NCBI GenBank assembly: GCA_020434205.1 | Contig: JAGRBF010000143.1 | Coordinates: forward strand, 348 to 34,980 | Direction: 5' to 3' | From: Calditrichota bacterium | GTDB taxonomy: Bacteria > Calditrichota > Calditrichia > RBG-13-44-9 > J075 | DNA length: 34,633 nucleotides | Shown here: positions 1-33,794 of the stretch, one piece after another | Position numbering within the stretch: the first letter of the stretch is position 1 | Layout: each line of letters begins with the position of its first letter | The notes under the pieces: model-generated | What the model was told of the DNA's origin: nothing | Database searches by the model: none | Seen by the model: only the letters and a program-made list of their open reading frames with translations | Program-made: the position numbers and the translations under genes

Positions 1-44
1 ACGGATTACGGATTACGGCTCACGGCTCACGGCTCACGGCCCAC
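1..44. repeat. Heptanucleotide tandem array, ACGGNNN, about six copies
   Basis: Two ACGGATT units are followed by three ACGGCTC units and one ACGGCCC unit, all in register with a 7-bp period. The array ends 39 bases before the ATG at 84, so it lies in the leader of the first gene. It may continue upstream of the window. Its ACGG core and period match the arrays near 33.3 and 33.75 kb. Confidence 0.9.
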
Positions 45-30152: not shown

Positions 30153-30263
30153 GGCGCCGTAGGGGTCGGTCTTGACCGACCCTTCATGGATCCAGATCGG
30201 GTTTAGGCGCCGTAGGGGTCTTGACCGACCCCTCATGGATCCGGATCGGGTTTAGACGCCGTG
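30153..30263. repeat. Tandem pair of ~50-bp palindromic intergenic repeats
   Basis: Two near-identical units, 30153-30205 and 30206-30254, start GGCGCCGTAGGGGTC and end GATCGGGTTTA. The second lacks four bases (GGTC). A third partial unit (GACGCCGT) follows. The first unit contains a nine-base-pair hairpin at 30163-30182 (GGGTCGGTC, TT, GACCGACCC). This looks like a REP-type extragenic palindromic repeat. Confidence 0.85.
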
Positions 30264-33237: not shown

Positions 33238-33267
33238 GGCAGATTCTTACCAAGGAAGCACCAATTG

Positions 33268-33298
33268 TTGGCCGTCGGCCGCTTGCCGTCGGCCGTTT
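33268..33298. repeat. Left inverted heptad repeat of the four-helix-bundle element
   Basis: Four 7-bp units, GCCGTCG, GCCGCTT, GCCGTCG and GCCGTTT, lie at 33271-33298. The stretch from 33268 matches the reverse complement of the right array (33754-33794) at about 26 of 30 positions by hand alignment, so the two form imperfect terminal inverted repeats. Confidence 0.8.
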
Positions 33299-33308
33299 TC
33301 TGAGAGCA

Positions 33309-33674
33309 TCACTTGGGAAAAAATTTCCGCGGATTCTGCATCATCATACCGAGCATTTGCCCAAGACGTTGGTAATCCGCCATTAAGGTCTTGTGAGAGT
33401 CCTCATTCAGATAGCCACAGTCCCTGGCAAAATCTAAAAAAACAAGCACCTCACTTGCTTCCGCATCCGCATTGCTCAGTTTAGAAAGAAAATGTTTGGG
33501 ATATTGCCGCTTGCGATAACCTTCTGCCAGATTTGCACAGACAGACCTGGAAGCGCGCCTGATTTGATCTGTCATAGAAAAAGCTTCTGCTCTTGGAAAG
33601 GCCTTGCTTTTTTCGAAGACGTCCATCGCTAGCCTGTAGGCAAGTTGATATGCCATCAATGACTGAAAACCCAT
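33309..33674 (-). CDS. Four-helix-bundle protein (23S rRNA intervening-sequence family)
   Basis: This small protein of 121 residues matches the four helix bundle family first found in intervening sequences of 23S rRNA genes (TIGR02436-like). The hallmarks are the early YQLAYRLAMDVFEKSKAFPR, then DQIRRASRSVCANLAEGYRKRQ and SNADAEASEVLVFLDFARDCGYL (each read as adjoining short segments), and a final helix. Related Avd proteins bind nucleic acid in diversity-generating retroelements, but no reverse transcriptase or template repeat is visible here. It is the only minus-strand gene in the window and is enclosed by inverted heptad repeats. Its cellular role is unknown. It is probably unrelated to glycan synthesis. 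Confidence 0.9.
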   Translation of the reverse strand: MGFQSLMAYQLAYRLAMDVFEKSKAFPRAEAFSMTDQIRRASRSVCANLAEGYRKRQYPKHFLSKLSNADAEASEVLVFLDFARDCGYLNEDSHKTLMADYQRLGQMLGMMMQNPRKFFPK

Positions 33675-33753
33675 GTTTCTATCTCTATTTTGTGATGGAA
33701 TTTTCTTTATAGATTCAAAAAACTGAAAAATTGCATAATTTTTATTTAATTCT

Positions 33754-33794
33754 CAACGGCCAACGGCCAACGGCCAACGGCCAACGGCCAACGG
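33754..33794. repeat. Right heptad array, CAACGGC, 5.9 copies
   Basis: Five exact CAACGGC units plus CAACGG run from 33754 to 33794. The array ends nine bases before the first possible ATG of the wzi-like gene, so it lies within that gene's translation-initiation region and is also the right boundary of the four-helix-bundle element. Confidence 0.95.

Follow-up and report, generated by a model that had tools for sequence, protein, structure and literature searches.

S23/IVP proteins ('four helix bundle protein') are, to our knowledge, a widespread bacterial family without an assigned function. Known 23S rRNA intervening sequences (IVSs) place an S23 open reading frame within a terminal-inverted-repeat stem that is cut by RNase III (PMC4990558). 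These sequences, such as the one encoding S23p in Coxiella burnetii, measure about 0.4-0.5 kb, and their mobility has long been suspected (PMC4990558). The RAYT genes of REPIN/RAYT systems are single-copy, distinct genes that lie in inverted repeats within small intergenic elements; gene-less inverted doublets occur elsewhere in the genome (PMC3116915). RAYT is an HUH/Y1 transposase, and the REP repeat is a conserved palindrome.

The Avd protein of diversity-generating retroelements (DGRs) adopts a homologous four-helix-bundle fold. MITEs are short, have inverted ends, give rise to internal-deletion derivatives, and duplicate their target. Cyanobacterial STRR and TAACTGA repeats form intergenic heptamer arrays; TAACTGA arrays are present in Cyanobacteria, Beggiatoaceae, and Bacteroidetes, and were described with no mechanism and no mention of S23 (PMC4679880).

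In the open-access literature that was searched (subscription journals lay outside the search), no account was found of arrays flanking S23 genes. The gene at the locus analysed here is flanked in this way. The locus is probably one instance of a miniature mobile element that is widespread and consists only of an S23 gene and two inverted arrays of 7- or 8-nt units, the unit being private to each copy. The best reading of our analysis is a transposase-less miniature element that would resemble REPIN/RAYT or rRNA-IVS elements.

The S23 gene and its inverted heptad arrays

The window, which is the whole stretch of 34,633 nucleotides that was analysed, corresponds to positions 348-34980 of contig C588 in a 5.6-Mb genome of 710 contigs (G000). 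It contains:

33267-33794, no strand: whole S23 element (arm, gene, arm), 528 bp; its basis includes filled and empty sites elsewhere
33309-33674, minus strand: S23 / 23S-rRNA-IVP four-helix-bundle gene, 121 aa; PF05635, TIGR02436
33754-33794, no strand: 5' arm, upstream of the S23 gene; perfect CAACGGC x5.9, TRF score 82
33267-33297, no strand: 3' arm, past the S23 stop codon; heptads again, degenerate and inversely complementary to the 5' arm
1-44, no strand: solo heptad array ACGGATT/ACGGCTC, sharing its core with the arms; no S23 gene seen, and an N gap precedes it

The gene is a member of the S23 / 23S rRNA-IVP family: in a profile search, its protein exceeded the curated cut-offs over the full domain for both PF05635 (102.9 bits; cut-off 33.8) and TIGR02436 (93.8 bits; cut-off 24). 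The nearest solved structure is PDB 2gsc (XCC0516). Scores for the Avd profiles fell below both cut-offs (NF033474, 34.3 bits against 80; bAvd PF22296, 31.2 against 40), and the gene, unlike the Avd gene of DGRs, has no reverse transcriptase beside it. Only S23/Avd-type families match the gene, and no HUH/Y1 transposase lies between the repeats. The element matched no PADLOC defence model, and neither Rfam nor rRNA matches were found in the window.

Read toward the gene, the 5' arm is made of CCGTTGG units; TRF reports the left array (33270-33296) as degenerate GGCCGTC. In inverted alignment, 33267-33297 and 33755-33785 (31 nt) are complementary at 27 positions (87%). This bears out the earlier note, which had counted inverted copies matching at about 26 of 30 positions around a minus-strand gene, and the measured span agrees with its compact unit of about 0.53 kb. 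ACGGNNNACGGNNNACGG occurs eight times in the window against 0.01 expected, so the arrays are not due to chance. An inverted-flank score of at least 22, the level of this arm pair, is reached by 1.6% of 485 control genes. The inverted heptad arrays around the gene are thereby confirmed as a real observation.

The element is situated not inside a 23S rRNA gene but between two protein-coding genes of a polysaccharide cluster, where it appears to have inserted; the copy looks intact and not recently moved. Glycan neighbours, wbpE and wzi, had been proposed. The upstream (5') neighbour encodes a DegT-type aminotransferase (PF01041); the name wzi is unconfirmed because the first 276 residues of the downstream (3') neighbour have no Pfam match. 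(Elsewhere in the window, a near-perfect 49-bp tandem duplication with a TRF score of 169 lies between two polysaccharide-cluster genes, at 30168-30262.)

The opposite orientation noted for the gene holds, in that it is antisense to both neighbours, but is atypical for the family. Between co-directional neighbours, 94 of 97 S23 genes are sense and 3 antisense, and control genes are sense in 114 of 132 cases; the window gene belongs to the small antisense minority. A bias of 94:3 is stronger than random insertion would produce; S23 may depend on transcription by the host, or antisense copies may be selected against.

Like the rRNA IVSs, the window element has terminal inverted repeats that enclose an S23 frame. 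Unlike them, S23 elements lie outside rRNA, at intergenic or intercistronic sites, and their arms are tandem arrays of 7 or 8 nt with an element-specific unit. RNase III processing belongs to the IVSs; for S23 elements, several filled and empty sites were observed. RAYT is an enzyme, whereas S23 has no known catalytic fold; and where REP is conserved, the S23 arm is a tandem array whose unit changes between elements. Compared with MITEs, the S23 element has no identified parent transposase, and its ends are tandem arrays.

Arms matched in period and complementarity

S23 was found in 44 of 60 relatives. Among 79 S23 genes with full flanks in related genomes, 58% had an inverted-flank score of at least 20, against 2.1% of the 485 control genes (other genes on the same stretches) and 0.5% of mispaired flanks (swapped between genes); a direct-repeat score of at least 20 was reached by 14%. 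A domain-wide collection of 86 genes at 80 named loci gave 45% with inverted flanks against 0.8% for mispaired flanks, although this set leans to one S23 subfamily because it was retrieved with that narrower subfamily. It covers Bacteroidota, Cloacimonadota, Nitrospirota, Proteobacteria, Desulfobacterota, Acidobacteria, Planctomycetes, Cyanobacteria, Clostridia, candidate phyla, and Methanophagales. One third or more of S23 genes score below the threshold. A search for S23 in phages found none.

The arms share a rhythm as well as a sequence. The best period among 198 strongly periodic flanks was 7 for 88, 14 for 31, and 8 for 57, leaving 22 for all others; none of 340 shuffled flanks reached the periodicity threshold. 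The two arms of one element are equal in period, and the 7-family and 8 are almost never mixed. Read toward the gene, arms are poor in C (about 10% C, 32% G). A fixed contiguous core in each unit, 4+3 or 5+3, was considered and rejected, circular autocorrelation being close to random.

Orthologous loci reveal that a change in one arm is matched in the other. At seven Flavobacteriia-type loci, among them those of Flavobacterium and Aquimarina, S23 is enclosed by one and the same gene pair (…EENWN, S23, MINLFN…). Two of the loci have the unit CTGAGTAG, two have one that resembles CAAAGGTT, and the rest have yet other units (those at this locus include CTAAGAAT), but every locus has complementary arms. 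In Winogradskyella, Lacinutrix, and Capnocytophaga, a second set of orthologues, with TAGCGAA/TAGCATA heptads, has likewise changed with its arms complementary. Because the unit has changed and the arms match nonetheless, complementarity is maintained and is not the fossil of one insertion. At one Flavobacteriia locus the position of S23 is constant across genera; movement is therefore rare, or those copies are domesticated.

The protein does not appear to dictate the unit, an idea that was rejected because the units of different elements are alike only when the proteins exceed 60% identity. Purifying selection acts on the S23 protein, with dN/dS at 0.05-0.14 in the five pairs that are sufficiently diverged.

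Repeat arrays in draft genomes may be misassembled, and N gaps lie near some of these arrays. An identical S23 pair in genome G008 was rejected as a recent transposition: one copy (L070 8295-10216) lies between two exact 100-N gaps, a scaffolding artefact. In genome G047, S23-like genes occur in divergent pairs, each pair almost a self-inverted repeat (L129 3954-4566), with 19 partial matches in that one genome.

Private units, empty sites, and arrays without the gene

The host genome has five S23 genes, four complete and one cut by a contig end. The earlier note had asked whether ACGG heptads flank the other copies, and they flank none. The other three complete copies instead have inverted period-8 arrays, each different: GGGGGACC..AAAGGACT / AGTCCTGAAGTCTT; GTGTCGGG / CACTCCGA; and GAGGGGACGAGGATACGA / TCGTACCCTCCTACCCTC. 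The array unit is private to each S23 gene, even within one genome. Nor are ACGG heptads tied to the gene: they occur without S23 at window positions 1-44 and in at least 20 other places in the genome, mostly as single arrays and seldom as inverted pairs. The ACGG heptad was therefore rejected as a diagnostic signature.

Taken to the letter, both observations named in advance as telling against an element (copies lacking the heptads, and heptads without the gene) were made. The element idea survives because each S23 copy has its own unit, and arrays without S23 are expected derivatives. What stands of the proposal that S23 genes spread as miniature elements with terminal heptads is the inverted arrays and their joint gain and loss; what falls is the ACGG heptad as a general signature.

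The host genome also has intergenic mosaics in which different 7- and 8-mer units lie end to end (C14 at about 835-930, C18 at about 5746, and C588 at 165-390). Their units include GCGAAAA running into ACGGCCA, as well as GGGTACGA, GAGAAGCG, CCGTTGG, and ATCATCA.

Array, gene, and array come and go as one unit. In the sister species G004 and G006, two S23 sites filled in one species are empty in the other, where arrays are missing as well; in one counterpart S23 is internally deleted and both arms are kept, and one intergenic site carries two different S23 elements with different periods. Site T, on a cyanobacterial plasmid, has the empty form AAAAAGTAATTAACAAAT and the filled form AAAAAGTAAT-( AAATCAGAATTCAG…S23…CTCCTGAGTTCTTCTTT )-GTAATTAACAAAT. 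This is a precise insertion of array, S23, and array, with flanks 97.8% identical and a 5-bp GTAAT duplication. Nostoc sp. ATCC 53789 has two plasmids reciprocally filled and empty at neighbouring gaps; its site 1 has a probable TTCTA duplication, of which the right copy could be a terminal repeat unit resembling the target. In Nostoc edaphicum an element lies antisense between nrdB and nrdA, two genes that are adjacent in Calothrix. Target duplication is clean at one site only and probable at a second; at least four other sites have ambiguous junctions, and those at the integrase, TraM, and Aulosira plasmid sites were too imprecise for a target duplication to be called. These empty and filled plasmid sites provide a working set for S23 movement.

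Gene-less inverted doublets of the same repeat, as in REPIN/RAYT systems, are present in other genomes and on two Nostoc plasmids (L277/L278), where the S23-less array pairs have an identical 40-nt 5' end. Adjacent solo array pairs in relatives, where orientation is readable, number 10 inverted against 4 direct. Solo arrays and S23 arms of the same genome have 9-mers in common in 22% against a null of 9%, a difference that base composition may inflate.

Other S23-less inverted octad pairs have spacers of 3-100 nt and look like hairpins (L117 4841-5885, L092 7541-7675, L098 6497-6652); in some of this group the unit is that of a nearby S23 element.

S23 arms include TAACTGA-type units (L086), and some STRRs may be the arms or relics of S23 elements. 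Such elements could offer an origin for abundant intergenic heptamer arrays (TAACTGA, STRR).

Possible routes of movement

If the S23 element is a miniature mobile unit, the arms would be its DNA ends, forming a hairpin or cruciform when single-stranded, for example during replication. An S23 oligomer would bind the arms, and a putative nuclease or replication/repair activity would excise the unit or copy it into intergenic and intercistronic sites. Hairpin-templated repair and slippage could keep the two arms matched as their unit drifts; S23-less arms might be propagated or maintained in trans, in the manner of REPINs and their RAYTs. Against a purely DNA-based model, the sense bias points to transcription mattering, which such a model does not need. 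A catalytic motif or partner of S23 was looked for and not found, and no mobilising enzyme was identified.

The sense bias would suit an RNA-level element like the 23S rRNA IVS, in which the arms form an mRNA stem (an RNase III substrate) with the S23 frame in its loop, complementarity serves processing, and mobility proceeds via RNA. Known IVSs have this layout (PMC4990558), and the window element folds well as RNA (z = -4.6), although the fold is not independent support because any perfect inverted repeat folds well. This alternative is nevertheless unlikely. Arm mismatches comprise 184 G-U and 187 A-C, so the transcribed strand shows no trace of selection, and an RNA stem selected on the sense strand was rejected for want of a G-U excess. 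The window copy, moreover, is antisense, and it has no Rfam match. Reverse transcriptase (PF00078, RVT_1) is absent from the complete genome G017, where S23 genes number 9, as well as from G034, G021, and G055 (7-12 each), which led us to reject a reverse transcriptase in trans as a general requirement; the host genome has a single RVT_1, on contig C40. RNA-based mobilisation, as the earlier note had suggested, is not supported by these comparisons of sequence.

Alternatively, S23 could be passive cargo, a resident with another role, while an unrelated transposase acting in trans (e.g. Y1/IS200-type) moves the unit or the arrays. Y1_Tnp is present in 47 of 60 relatives, a RAYT-like Y1 gene occurs among the inverted-flank controls, and hairpin-like ends fit Y1 enzymes, judging from IS200 and REP (PMC3116915). 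However, the ends used by Y1 enzymes are sequence-specific, whereas S23 arm units vary from gene to gene; S23 itself is the constant part, and is under purifying selection. G018 and G001, with 6 and 2 S23 genes, have no Y1_Tnp, though both genomes are incomplete. Passive carriage is, on this showing, quite improbable.

It is scarcely credible that S23 genes lie by chance among background arrays, abundant as these are (about 1 solo period-7/8 array per 10 kb in related genomes, and the 20 or more S23-less ACGG arrays of the host), since such arrays are found in 39 of 324 S23-free intergenic regions against 42 of 63 S23 genes, arrays adjacent by chance would not be inverted, would not agree in unit and period, and would not be missing along with the gene from empty sites, and the mispairing and control-gene tests contradict it.

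Control genes with inverted flanks include GxxExxY (PDDEXK_3), DUF559, and Y1 transposase genes; these families were assigned by eye, and PDDEXK_3 and DUF559 were then searched as Pfam families. Half of 28 PDDEXK_3/GxxExxY genes (50%; L279-L308) were inverted-flanked against 1.4% of mispaired flanks, as were 48% of 25 DUF559 genes (L309-L338) against 2.8%; direct-repeat scores in both sets are often high too. Their flanks have units that are typical of the family and shared within it, not private: CACRGAG/TTCGTG and AGGGGGA, with a period of about 8-10. GxxExxY and DUF559, nuclease-like by name, could be a source of the missing activity.

More tentatively, transposable elements without a transposase domain might form a domain-wide class with S23 as their protein, their ends being element-specific, self-complementary 7/8-mer arrays that are rewritten over time but remain matched between arms; GxxExxY and DUF559 would be parallel classes with their own ends, and many STRR-like heptad arrays would be relics. 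If movement truly occurs without a transposase, it would represent an undescribed route of mobilisation. Element-specific inverted arrays and their joint gain and loss make S23 function testable: does the protein bind the arms, and does it move them?

S23, GxxExxY, and DUF559 genes are often separated by no more than a few kb, as if sharing insertion regions (G035:C204 32661-36392; G012:C123; G033:C14; G030:C209).
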